Positions 1,964-25,095 of a stretch of DNA of 64,000 bases are shown one piece after another. Below the pieces are notes generated by a model. That model was not told the origin of the DNA, searched no databases, and worked only from the letters and a program-made list of their open reading frames with translations. The position numbers and the translations under genes are program-made. This stretch comes from Nocardioides iriomotensis (GTDB lineage: Bacteria > Actinomycetota > Actinomycetes > Propionibacteriales > Nocardioidaceae), in contig NZ_SDPU01000021.1 of assembly GCF_004168035.1 (NCBI RefSeq), positions 62,001 through 126,000 of the forward strand. Reading direction: 5' to 3'. Positions within the stretch are counted from its first letter, which is position 1, and every line of letters begins with the position of its first letter.

Positions 1964-2005
1964 ATGCGTGACCAGCTTCTTGTACGCCCGCGACGCGACG
2001 GCTGA
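1964..2005 (+). CDS. ilvL: ilvB leader peptide (Leu-Leu-Val)
   Basis: A 13-codon open frame, MRDQLLVRPRRDG, sits just ahead of an intrinsic terminator and 109 bases before ilvB. It contains CTT CTT GTA, two Leu codons and a Val codon that are rare in this GC-rich genome. Stalling at these codons when charged Leu or Val tRNA is scarce would favour readthrough into ilvBNC, the classical attenuation logic known for acetohydroxyacid synthase operons in actinobacteria. No Shine-Dalgarno is visible, so translation may be leaderless. Control by this peptide is inferred from its position and codons. Confidence 0.75.
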   Translation: MRDQLLVRPRRDG

Positions 2006-2034
2006 CGGCCTCCACGACCGCACCGCCGCGTCCA

Positions 2035-2067
2035 CCCCTCGCCGCCCGTCGGGCCGAGGGGTTTTTT
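2035..2067 (+). terminator. ilvBNC attenuator (intrinsic terminator)
   Basis: CCCCTCG at 2035-2041 pairs with CGAGGGG at 2055-2061, with further GCCC/GGGC pairing inside the loop, followed directly by six T (2062-2067). It lies 30 bases after the leader stop codon and 47 bases before ilvB, so it is placed to stop transcription when the leader is translated freely. Confidence 0.85.
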
Positions 2068-21813: not shown

Positions 21814-23360
21814 ACCGCGTGTCGCTGAGCATGCGGCTCATCGCACTGCTGGCGCTCCTGGCCGTCGTGATCACCACCGTCACGGTCGTCCTCGTCCTCG
21901 CGATCAACCGGGTGAACGACAACCGGATGCTCGTCGCCTCCCGCTTCCAGCCGGCCAGCGTGCAGTCGCGCGCACTCCTCGTCGGGCTCGTCGACCAGGA
22001 GACCGGTCAGCGCGGCTACGTGCTCACCGGTGACGACGCCTTCCTCGACCCCTACCGCGAGGGCCGCCGTGACGTGGCGCGGTCACTGGCGTCGCTGCGC
22101 AAGGAGTTCCCCGACGACGCCGAGATGCTCGCCGCGATCGACGAGGTCGAGACGGCCGCCGAGACCTGGCAGCAGGTCGGCGCCCGGCCGGAGATCGCCG
22201 CCCGCCGGGCCGACGAGTTCGACGTCGCCCAGGAGCTGGTGCGGGTCGGGCGCGGCAAGCGGGCGTTCGAGGAGGTGCGCGTCCAGGTCGCGCAGCTGCA
22301 GACGCTCATCGACCTCCGGCTCGCGGCCGCCCGCCAGGAGGACCGCGAGAACCTTCGGCTGCTCCGGCTCACCGGCGTGATCGGGGTCGGCGCCGTCGTC
22401 CTCATCGTCGGGCTCACGGCGTACCTCCTGCGCCGCTGGGCGCTGGTCCCGCTGCAGACCCTGCGACGACGCATGCGCGCGGTGGCCGGTGGTCACCTCG
22501 ACGACGAGGTGATCGTGGAGGGTCCGCCCGAGATCGCGGCGGTGTCCCACGACGCGGAGAGCATGCGGCGGCGGATCCTCACCGAGCTCGACGCCGCGCG
22601 GGGTGCGACCGAGGCGCTGCTGCAGCACAGCCCGGTGGTGGCCGCGCTCGGCTCCGCCCTGGCCGGCGGTTCGCCCCAGCAGGTGGGGCCGGTCGCGGTC
22701 TCGGGCACCGTCCTGGCGGCCGAGGGCGTGCTCGCCGGCGACACGTGGCACGTCCTGCACCGGCCGAGCGGCAGCACCGCCGCCCTCGTCACCGACGTCT
22801 CCGGGCACGGCCCCGAGGCCGGGCTGGTCGCGTTCGCGTTCAAGCAGCGGCTCGGAGCCCTGCTCGCGACCGACCTCGGTCTGCTCGACGCGTTCGAGCG
22901 GGCCGCCATCTGGACCGTCCGCGACGACGAGCGCTTCGTCACCGCCGCCGTCGTCGAGGTCCACGACGACGGCCGGCTCGTCTGGGTCAACGCCGGGCAC
23001 CCCGCGCCGCTGGTCCTCGGTGGTCCCTTTGCCGGGGTCCGCGCGCAGCTCGAGCAGACCGGGCCGATCGTCTCGTCGGTGTCGTCGGGCTGGACGGCCG
23101 AGGAGATGCGTCTCGCGCCCGGCGAGCTGGTGCTGATCTACACCGATGGCGTCGTCGAGGCGCGCGACCCCGAGGGCAACGAGCTGGGGGAGCAGGGGCT
23201 CGTCGCCGCGCTCTCAGGCATCGTCCCGTGGACGCCCGACGCGGTCGTGCTGCGGGTCGGCGACGTCGTACGCCGCTTCGACAAGGGCGTCCGGCGCGAC
23301 GACGTCACCTGCGTGGCGCTCGGGTACGCCCGATCGGATCCTGGGACAACGGTTCCATGA
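21810..23360 (+). CDS. Membrane sensor phosphatase: CHASE3-HAMP-SpoIIE/PP2C
   Basis: A 516-residue protein. A first transmembrane helix (about 8-33) is followed by an extracytoplasmic CHASE3-type helical domain with the signature LLVGLVDQETGQRGYVLTGD, then a second membrane helix (about 190-212), a HAMP linker, and a cytoplasmic SpoIIE-type PP2C phosphatase domain (about 290-510). The Asp residues for two metals are seen in LVTDVSGHGPEAGL, YTDGVVEARDPEG and RRDDVTCVAL. Such proteins dephosphorylate anti-sigma-factor antagonists or kinase targets. Translationally coupled to the methyltransferase. Confidence 0.9.
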   Translation: MNRVSLSMRLIALLALLAVVITTVTVVLVLAINRVNDNRMLVASRFQPASVQSRALLVGLVDQETGQRGYVLTGDDAFLDPYREGRRDVARSLASLRKEFPDDAEMLAAIDEVETAAETWQQVGARPEIAARRADEFDVAQELVRVGRGKRAFEEVRVQVAQLQTLIDLRLAAARQEDRENLRLLRLTGVIGVGAVVLIVGLTAYLLRRWALVPLQTLRRRMRAVAGGHLDDEVIVEGPPEIAAVSHDAESMRRRILTELDAARGATEALLQHSPVVAALGSALAGGSPQQVGPVAVSGTVLAAEGVLAGDTWHVLHRPSGSTAALVTDVSGHGPEAGLVAFAFKQRLGALLATDLGLLDAFERAAIWTVRDDERFVTAAVVEVHDDGRLVWVNAGHPAPLVLGGPFAGVRAQLEQTGPIVSSVSSGWTAEEMRLAPGELVLIYTDGVVEARDPEGNELGEQGLVAALSGIVPWTPDAVVLRVGDVVRRFDKGVRRDDVTCVALGYARSDPGTTVP

Positions 23361-23388
23361 CCCGGACGCGGGTGGCAGACTCGGGAGC

Positions 23389-23415
23389 GTGCAGCGGCAG
23401 ATCATTATCAGCTAG
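23389..23415 (+). CDS. cimA leader peptide (Ile-Ile-Ile)
   Basis: An 8-codon frame, VQRQIIIS starting at GTG, has three consecutive isoleucine codons (ATC ATT ATC). It is followed by a GCGCGA/TCGCGC stem (23415-23440), then an intrinsic terminator and the citramalate synthase gene, whose pathway leads to isoleucine. TTCCAT (23353) and CAGACT (23376-23381) form a possible promoter that would place the 5' end at or near the GTG, giving a leaderless peptide. Attenuation by isoleucine supply is the obvious reading, but is inferred. Confidence 0.75.
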   Translation: MQRQIIIS

Positions 23416-23441
23416 CGCGACCGGCACCCGCCGATCGCGCT

Positions 23442-23471
23442 GACCTCTCGTTCCCGACGGGAGGTCTTTTT
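23442..23471 (+). terminator. cimA attenuator terminator
   Basis: GACCTC (23442-23447) pairs with GAGGTC (23461-23466), extended inward through a G-U pair to a 9-bp stem with a 7-base loop, followed by five T (23467-23471). It lies 26 bases after the leader stop and 37 bases before cimA. Confidence 0.85.
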
Positions 23472-23508: not shown

Positions 23509-25095
23509 GTGACCACCGACCAGTTCCACGTCTACGACACGACGCTCCGCGACGGCGCCCAGCAGGAAGGGCTGAACCTCTCGGTGGCCGACAAGCTGAC
23601 CATCGCGCGCCAGCTCGACGGCCTGGGCGTGGGCTACATCGAGGGCGGCTGGCCGGGCGCCAACCCCAAGGACACCGAGTTCTTCCGGCGCGCGAAGGAC
23701 GAGCTGAAGCTCGACCACGCCCAGCTCGCGGCGTTCGGCGCCACCCGCCGGGCCGGCGTGAAGGCCGCCGACGACCCGCTCGTCGCGGCCCTGCGCGACT
23801 CCGGCGCCGGAGTGGTCACCCTGGTCGCCAAGTCGCACGACCGGCACGTCGAGCTCGCGCTGCGCACCACGCTCCAGGAGAACCTCGCGATGGTGCGCGA
23901 CACGGTTAGCCACCTCAAGGCCGAGGGCCAGCGGGTGTTCCTCGACGCCGAGCACTTCTTCGACGGCTACCGCGACAACCGCGACTACGCGCTCGAGGTG
24001 CTCCGCACGGCGTACGACGCCGGCGCCGACGTGGTCGCGCTCTGCGACACCAACGGCGGCATGCTCCCGCCCTGGGTCGGCGACGTCGTGGACGACGTCA
24101 TCCAGTCGACCGGGGTGCGCGTCGGCATCCACTGCCACAACGACACCGGCTGCGCCGTCGCCAACACGCTCGCCGCGGTCGAGGCCGGCGCGACGCACGT
24201 GCAGGGCACGCTCAACGGGTACGGCGAGCGCACCGGCAACGCCGACCTCGTCTCCGTCGTCGCCAACCTCGAGCTCAAGCTGGACCGGCAGGTGCTGCCC
24301 GGCGGGCTGCTCCGGGAGGCCACCCGGATCGCCCACGCCGTCGCCGACGTGACGAACTTCCCGCCCGCGTCGCGCCAGCCCTACGTCGGGGTCAGCGCCT
24401 TCGCGCACAAGGCCGGCCTGCACGCCAGCGCGATCAAGGTCGACCCGAACCTCTACCAGCACCTCGACCCGGTCGCCGTCGGCAACGACATGCGGCTGCT
24501 GGTCAGCGACATGGCCGGCCGCGCGTCGATCGAGCTGAAGGGCCGCGAGCTCGGCTTCGACCTGGCCGGCGACCGCGACCTGGTCACCCGCGTCACCGAG
24601 CGGGTGAAGGAGCTCGAGTCGCAGGGCCACACCTTCGAGGCGGCCGACGCGTCCTTCGAGCTGCTGCTCGTCGAGGAGGTCGAGGGGGTCCGCCCGTCGT
24701 ACTTCGACGTCGAGTCCTGGCGCGTCATCACCGACTCCCGGCCCGGCGGCGAGGCGGTGTCGGAGGCGACCATCAAGCTGCACGCCGGCGGCGCCCGCAT
24801 CATCACCACCGGCGAGGGCAACGGCCCGGTCAACGCGCTCGACCACGCGTTCCGCGAGGCGATCGGCCAGGCCTACCCGGAGGTCGCGAAGTTCGAGCTC
24901 ATCGACTACAAGGTGCGGATCCTCGACCAGGGCCACGGCACCGACGCCGTCACGCGGGTGCTGATCGAGACGACCGACGGGGAGTCGTCGTGGGTCACCG
25001 TCGGCGTGGGCGCCAACGTCATCGAGGCCTCGTGGGGCGCCCTGGTCGACGGCGTCACCTTCGGCCTGCGCCGGCAGGGCGAGAGGCCCCGGTAG
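23509..25095 (+). CDS. cimA: Citramalate synthase
   Basis: A 528-residue member of the isopropylmalate synthase family. The TIM-barrel half opens [13 protein letters not shown] and has the metal motif [15 protein letters not shown] near residue 205; the C-terminal half has a LeuA-type allosteric dimer domain. The length, the N-terminus and the upstream Ile leader all favour (R)-citramalate synthase (pyruvate plus acetyl-CoA, a threonine-independent route to isoleucine) over LeuA. GTG 23509 is chosen for its AGAGGA Shine-Dalgarno; an in-frame TTG at 23470 overlaps the terminator's T-run. Confidence 0.9.

Follow-up and report, generated by a model that had tools for sequence, protein, structure and literature searches.

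The attenuators of the trp, his, leu and ilvGMEDA operons of Escherichia coli carry a leader with control codons and a terminator before the structural gene, they work through a 2:3 antiterminator, and their leader has its own ribosome-binding site. To our knowledge, the branched-chain attenuators known so far act on acetolactate-synthase or threonine-deaminase operons. The element analysed here, at position 23389 of a 64,000-nt stretch of Nocardioides iriomotensis DNA (the window), shares with the E. coli attenuators the control-codon leader and the terminator ahead of a structural gene, in this case cimA; in contrast to them, neither a 2:3 antiterminator nor a ribosome-binding site of the leader is evident.

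Leader-peptide attenuators are already known, including leaderless ones in Actinobacteria. The ilvB-II motif of Corynebacterium, as presented in the main texts of PMC10272879 and PMC11109978, consists of a branched-chain-rich upstream ORF, a hairpin P1 and a terminator P2 ahead of ilvB. The antiterminator proposed in the main text of PMC10272879 is formed by the P1 loop and the 3′ shoulder of P2, and the authors report that a reporter was expressed at a high level in minimal medium and at a low level in rich medium (main texts of PMC10272879 and PMC11109978). The element at 23389 resembles this motif, so described, in its short branched-chain upstream ORF, hairpin and terminator, and pairing between loop and 3′ shoulder is proposed for both. 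It differs from the same description in having Ile codons instead of mixed Ile/Leu/Val codons, in hairpins separated by only 0–1 nt and in its downstream gene; a position ahead of ilvB, as in ilvB-II, is not found here, since the element precedes cimA. In addition, ilvB-II is described in Corynebacterium in these texts, whereas our model of the cimA element matched 98 of the 137 genera sampled in the class. The IlvL leader of Streptomyces lividans (MRTRILVLGKRVG*; Table 4 of PMC8079986, as far as that table goes) is leaderless, contains mixed codons and precedes ilvBHC. The element resembles IlvL, as tabulated, in its probably leaderless arrangement, in the K/R-R-x-G end that comes after the control codons in many of the leaders analysed here, and in having more than one hairpin together with a U-rich stretch, but precedes cimA and has Ile codons; none of the eight attenuators in that table is for cimA. 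Seliverstov et al. (2005; main text of PMC1262725) predicted actinobacterial attenuators for trp, trpS, leuS, ilvB and cys leaders and a LEU element for leuA. As in our work, leader peptides and terminators were predicted there by comparison, the ilvB leaders in that text overlapping terminators with an unclear mode of regulation; in contrast to our work, the words cimA and citramalate are absent from the text of PMC1262725.

A term search detected no cimA or citramalate attenuator in the main texts of PMC8079986, PMC4833913, PMC1262725, PMC10272879, PMC8632094, PMC11109978 and PMC2965389, nor was one found in the open-licence literature (main texts without supplements; a listing elsewhere is possible). 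In line with the preliminary description, for which isoleucine-specific attenuation of a citramalate route was not known to be described, we could not find within this literature a description of an isoleucine-only member for cimA, of its breadth or of codon-swapped forms of the same RNA chassis.

Leader, promoter-like motifs and hairpins ahead of cimA

The features of the locus are listed in Table 1. The preliminary description had noted an eight-codon frame with three consecutive Ile codons, followed by a small stem and a T5 terminator. The frame and the T5 terminator were both read in the sequence, and in place of one small stem there are two hairpins. The final Ile codon lies 4 nt ahead of stem 1, which abuts the terminator. 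The distance from the T-run to the cimA start is 37 nt, and AGAGGA lies 6 nt ahead of the cimA GTG at 23509. On the upstream side, an ORF for a CHASE3-HAMP-SpoIIE phosphatase ends at 23360, 28 nt ahead of the leader.

Table 1. Coordinates of the cimA and ilvB leader features in the window
Feature	Position	Strand	Remarks
−35-like hexamer TTCCAT	23353..23358	+	By eye, weak; overlaps the 3′ end of the upstream SpoIIE-phosphatase ORF
−10-like hexamer CAGACT, preceded by TGG	23376..23381	+	By eye; 7 nt to leader GTG
Leader ORF MQRQIIIS*	23389..23415	+	GTG CAG CGG CAG ATC ATT ATC AGC TAG; probably leaderless
Control codons ATC ATT ATC (Ile-Ile-Ile)	23401..23409	+	
Stem 1 hairpin	23414..23441	+	Begins within leader stop codon; fold, covariation
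Intrinsic terminator	23442..23471	+	11-bp stem 23442–23466 and TTTTT 23467–23471; fold, covariation
cimA, citramalate synthase, GTG start	23509..25095	+	TIGR00977, 638 bits (cut-off 450)
ilvB leader ORF MRDQLLVRPRRDG*	1964..2005	+	Same architecture; control codons CTT CTT GTA
Rest of ilvB leader	2006..2067	+	Terminator 2035–2061 and T6; by eye

The 87-nt segment 23389–23475 folded at −41.4 kcal/mol (z −4.54), a value equalled by none of 200 shuffles. The pattern ATHATHATH occurs once on the two strands of the 64 kb, namely as the Ile run of the leader at 23401; dinucleotide shuffles contained a mean of 0.11 occurrences, and 11 of 100 shuffles contained one. The leader is also the sole ORF of 5–30 codons (ATG or GTG start) with Ile-Ile-Ile in the window, and five mononucleotide shuffles yielded none. 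The occurrence of this leader and terminator ahead of cimA is real and not a product of chance.

For comparison among relatives, 176 elements were parsed; L034 and L161, which repeat the upstream regions of L009 and L035, were dropped, as was L060 on a guess, leaving 173. A −10-like hexamer followed 5–9 nt later by ATG or GTG was present in 148 of these, and the pattern found none in the other 25. The start codon stood 6–7 nt past the hexamer in 141 of the 148, a comparison that backs the leaderless geometry noted in the preliminary description. In the window, the two hexamers read by eye are separated by a 17-nt spacer, and a scan with the sigma-70 consensus called no promoter ahead of the cimA leader. 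The promoter reading is plausible, its −10 hexamer being backed by the conserved position among relatives, and the transcript probably starts at or beside the leader GTG, giving a leaderless leader.

The two hairpins were then assessed on an alignment of 100 elements (A3), which was fitted to the model structure and hence leans towards that structure. In A3, 96.5% of cells pair. Both partners vary in 13 of the 19 pairs, and 175 cells show such double changes as compared with 36.9 after column shuffling and at most 41 when partners were slid. The outermost four pairs of stem 1 (GCGC) are nearly invariant, and RNAalifold recovered the same two helices. The covariation argues that both stems are real RNA helices. 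The spacing was also kept: of 147 elements, 144 have 4–5 nt between the last Ile codon and stem 1, and 141 have a gap of 0–1 nt between stem 1 and the terminator. At gathering score, Rfam recognized only two tRNAs in the window, and Rfam 15 gave no match at six loci; on the element itself there were only weak matches far below the gathering scores, with no T-box among them.

Occurrence of the element in the family, class and phylum

In the family Nocardioidaceae, cimA was present in 132 of the 149 genomes searched, with 130 readable upstream regions after exclusion of L025 and L349, in which the contig ends before the upstream region. The upstream regions of cimA from relatives bear out the conservation of the Ile leader and both stems, the element being located ahead of cimA in 117 of the 130 family regions. 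The automatic parser accounted for 114 of the first 129, and L013, L186 and L348 were added by eye together with a match to the covariance model R1. The other 13 regions showed no R1 match in the available stretch: in L010, L156, L164 and L347, cimA lies directly behind an ilvE-like gene (by eye), and in the remaining nine the region ahead of cimA is without the element. Several of these nine carry a −10-like motif at the very start of cimA, an arrangement that would fit loss of the attenuator. At L213 (720–1230; family, gene order leuB-ilvE-cimA), cimA has no leader, and a branched-chain-rich short ORF (MQNLIVV...) was seen by eye after a −10-like TACACT ahead of leuB.

Among 80 loci of named relatives, 33 were positive with the parser; the other 47 include many from other classes or phyla, some in which cimA lies behind ilvE-like genes and a few incomplete ones. 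Carriers include Kribbella, Nonomuraea, Planotetraspora, Acrocarpospora, Pedococcus, Isoptericola, Cellulosimicrobium, Cellulomonas, Motilibacter, Demequina, Kutzneria, Amycolatopsis, Lentzea and Pseudonocardia. The upstream neighbour of the element is not constant: within 3 kb at the 33 positive loci, a homologue of the SpoIIE gene of the window was found once, leuB- and/or ilvE-like genes 21 times and neither 11 times.

R1 was built from 15 elements (alignment A2); a MAFFT alignment of elements with mixed terminator lengths (A1) was left out because its 3′ arms were misaligned. At E ≤0.01, R1 matched 232 of 393 class genomes and 98 of 137 genera, ilvB leaders being among the matches. One of the best 30 class matches is the window itself, and the remaining 29 all lie ahead of cimA. 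Of 40 further class matches, chosen for spread with weaker and second matches included, 36 precede cimA, three ilvB and one (L284) neither, so that 65 of the 69 matches checked are upstream of cimA. Four genomes of one genus (g46; L278–L281) carry the cimA element. In a phylum sample, R1 matched 41 of 246 genomes at E ≤0.001, 30 of the 41 being outside the class. Twenty out-of-class matches are located upstream of ilvB (12), leuA (two, both passing the NCBIfam cut-offs), cimA (one), leuB-ilvE (one) or, within the stretch analysed, none of these (four, one of them followed by a long ORF for isocitrate lyase).

Some individual matches were recorded separately. L284, on the reverse strand, has an Ile-type leader (MFALVIIM*) with a stem and a terminator; no cimA, ilvB, ilvC, leuB or ilvE was found behind it, and an ORF in that region is weakly ACT-domain-like (PF13291, below cut-off). 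A second copy in the same genome (L285) is upstream of cimA. Genome G384 has two cimA starts (L282 and L283), both preceded by their own Ile leader and terminator, which are almost the same at the two places. A contig end truncates one of them, so that a mixed assembly is possible. The R1 match L333 has a frame ending RRGFVAIA* and isocitrate lyase (772 bits) as the next long ORF, a surprising neighbour for such a leader, and is perhaps due to chance. Over the N. iriomotensis genome, R1 yielded the cimA element and four weak matches, the best of which (21.7 bits, L215) overlies the start of a gene apparently for thymidine phosphorylase and was taken as false. The ilvB leader of the window was absent from this genome-wide listing, and direct search of the window with R1 detected it at 1979–2067 (18.8 bits, E 0.006).

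Control codons and the isoleucine pathway

Of the 148 elements with a recognized start, 146 have the start codon in the reading frame of the Ile codons, with no stop within those 146. The length of the parsed cimA leaders varies from 7 to 27 codons, indicating that indels keep the frame. The leader thus has the look of a translated ORF. The stop codon comes one codon after the last Ile in 79 of the 146, 4–8 codons further on in 66 and at once in one. The second codon of the triad was ATT or ATC in 91 of 100 cases and the third in 94, with about equal shares of the two codons. The parser accepted only elements with an ATT or ATC upstream of stem 1; one Ile codon in each leader is therefore due to selection, and further Ile codons are not.

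At least two Ile codons were present in 141 of the 146 cimA leaders, as compared with one of 28 ilvB leaders of the family. The branched-chain codons of the 146 cimA leaders comprise 403 for Ile, 110 for Val and 49 for Leu, and those of the family ilvB leaders (28 of 30 readable) comprise 51 for Val, 49 for Leu and 13 for Ile. The Fisher odds ratio for Ile in cimA versus ilvB leaders was 19.5 (p 8e-34, not to be taken literally for related sequences). The ilvB leaders were recognized by a pattern of three hydrophobic residues including Leu or Val, and their Leu and Val are therefore partly due to selection, unlike the scarcity of Ile. Relatives that have lost the Ile run and kept the terminator, of the kind that the preliminary description had set against its reading, are rare but exist: five of the 146 cimA leaders have a single Ile. 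Single-Ile leaders were also seen by eye at L288, L301, L302 and L309, among the 40 class loci chosen for spread.

The Ile codon ATT accounts for 137 of 402 leader Ile codons as against two of 610 in the cimA genes of 40 relatives. Seven window genes have no ATT among their 114 Ile codons, one GTA among 311 Val codons and no CTT among 309 Leu codons; in the ilvB leaders GTA made up 37 of 51 Val codons and CTT 18 of 49 Leu codons. The control codons are thus codons nearly absent from the surrounding genes. Where the ribosome stalls, codons as rare as these would make the response sharper; an alternative explanation of their use is that an unpaired, AU-rich strand is selected for.

Outside the class, the two leuA leaders (L327 and L341) read MSQNLLLT* and VKVHHRNGLLLR*, with pure Leu control codons (LLLT* and LLLR*). 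The frame of the out-of-class cimA leader ends SIIIIR*, and the leuB-ilvE leader reads MSSFQVAIG*; 11 readable ilvB leaders have mixed runs such as LVLI, LLVVV and ILVVLI. Before leuB-ilvE-cimA at two loci outside the family (L107 and L088), the frames end TVIMD* and VVVAIG*, respectively. In the predicted leaders, the control codons track the downstream pathway, with Ile for cimA, Ile/Leu/Val for ilvB and Leu for leuA (two loci).

The leader suggests that cimA serves isoleucine synthesis. The preliminary description went too far in holding that the leader would establish cimA as the route by which this organism makes isoleucine, since a threonine ammonia-lyase is also encoded in the genome (TIGR01127, 448 bits, cut-off 379); its presence rules out the leader as proof that cimA is the sole isoleucine route. 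A TIGR02079-type IlvA was not detected over the cut-off of 441 in the N. iriomotensis genome (best 285 bits), and was over the cut-off in 26 of 71 family genomes. After 15 genomes without cimA and one unreadable genome were set aside, this IlvA was present in 7 of 10 genomes with cimA and no leader and in 16 of 45 with the leader (p 0.075), and we therefore draw no conclusion; the same comparison with two fewer genomes gave 7 of 9 versus 16 of 44 (Fisher p 0.03).

Proposed attenuation of cimA and alternative explanations

Taken at the level of sequence comparison, the element at 23389 is very likely to be an isoleucine-specific, ribosome-mediated transcription attenuator of cimA that responds to the supply of Ile-tRNA. 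When charged tRNA(Ile) is ample, the ribosome would clear the Ile codons and sit at the stop codon or, in relatives in which the frame reads on, reach the stem-1 loop instead. In either position it would mask the stem-1 5′ arm, and transcription would be halted by the terminator ahead of cimA. When Ile-tRNA is scarce, the ribosome would stall at the Ile codons and stem 1 would form, hindering completion of the terminator, so that cimA would be transcribed. If a ribosome shields roughly 12 nt past its codon (up to 12 nt beyond the stop according to the main text of PMC4833913), we infer that a stall on the first Ile codon leaves stem 1 nearly or wholly free and that a ribosome at the stop codon, or further on in leaders whose frame enters stem 1, opens it; stem 1 would therefore act as a 'starvation' hairpin opposing the terminator.

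How the stall would reach the terminator is the least certain step, and our answer to it is tentative. Most likely, the C-rich loop of stem 1 (ACCC in the window element, GGACCCC in some relatives) would compete as a pseudoknot with the 5′ arm of the terminator for its 3′ arm. A classical antiterminator was sought in 147 elements folded to just past the 5′ arm of the terminator with 0, 4 or 6 stem-1 nucleotides masked, and was not found, the mean z of stability against shuffles being −0.59 with 4 nt and +0.23 with 6 nt masked. At least half of the 5′ arm of the terminator was paired in 33% (4 nt masked), 39% (6 nt masked) and 14% (unmasked) of these elements. A classical nested antiterminator as the general mechanism was rejected, since its stability was little or no better than that of shuffles.

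Pairing of the loop with the 3′ arm of the terminator averaged −8.63 kcal/mol as compared with −7.75 for shuffled loops, and was lower in 98 of 153 elements (p 8e-7, not literal for related sequences); the controls gave −7.93 with reversed loops and −8.22 with swapped partners. With the 5′ arm as control, the loop showed no difference from shuffles. A cruder loop test gave mean z values of −0.37 with the 3′ arm and −0.19 with the 5′ arm. Permutation of the partners in the loop–3′ arm pairing reached the observed value 5 times in 1000 for all 153 elements, 12 in 1000 for the family type with the stop codon at the stem, 187 in 1000 for 100 family elements and 647 in 1000 for 36 family read-on elements. 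The loop-to-arm signal thus appears modest and uneven, and this pairing, although the likeliest coupling step, is a weak proposal. We commit ourselves to attenuation responsive to Ile-tRNA and offer loop-to-arm pairing as a candidate for its coupling step. Attenuation by charged tRNA-Ile, as put forward in the preliminary description, is favoured by the Ile leader, the covarying stems, the terminator and the pathway-matched codons with cimA, and has against it that the classical antiterminator was not found, that the place of the leader stop varies, that five of 146 leaders have one Ile and that 13 of 130 family cimA genes lack the element.

That same negative result is consistent with an unlikely alternative, in which isoleucine is sensed through translation or the fate of the mRNA (for example, Rho loading or coupling between the leader and cimA) and the hairpins only insulate cimA from read-through. 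Codon substitutions in the Streptomyces coelicolor ilvB leader, which are reported to have been without effect (Seliverstov et al. 2005, main text of PMC1262725), count both for this alternative and against the proposed attenuation, and read-through into cimA is possible from the upstream ORF ending at 23360. However, the terminator is downstream of a promoter-like motif and leader of its own, with its T-run ending 37 nt before cimA and a covarying stem, and an insulator needs no codon-matched leaders. Far less probable is a structured regulatory RNA, such as a T-box, a riboswitch or a protein-binding element, with an AU-rich strand that mimics Ile codons: the strong conservation of structure and sequence would agree with it, but no Rfam family matches at gathering score, the frame is kept despite changes in length, triad codons 2 and 3 vary synonymously between ATT and ATC, and the codons become LLL before leuA. 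Chance, in the form of an ordinary terminator of the SpoIIE-phosphatase gene next to an accidental short ORF, is hardly credible even with that gene ending only 28 nt ahead of the leader, and is refuted by the conservation of the element with cimA over the class, a SpoIIE homologue being upstream at one of 33 named loci and the Ile run being unique in the window.

Beyond the attenuation of cimA, it is possible, albeit doubtful, that the element belongs to a phylum-wide codon-programmable attenuator, in which one constant RNA chassis, made up of a leaderless start, control codons, a GC-rich hairpin and an abutting terminator, would have its specificity rewritten by codon changes alone, namely III before cimA, LLL before leuA, Ile/Leu/Val before ilvB and V/I before leuB-ilvE, with a loop-to-3′-arm pseudoknot instead of a nested antiterminator and with rare codons sharpening the response.

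If the attenuation of cimA proposed here is true, it would represent an isoleucine-only attenuator on the citramalate route, in an element that is widespread in soil actinomycetes and has no match in Rfam 15. The natural series of pathway-matched control codons would make it possible to test directly whether actinobacterial leaders with no visible antiterminator sense charged tRNA, a question standing since the ilvB work to which Seliverstov et al. (2005; main text of PMC1262725) refer. It would also bear on the engineering of isoleucine or 2-ketobutyrate supply in actinomycete hosts.
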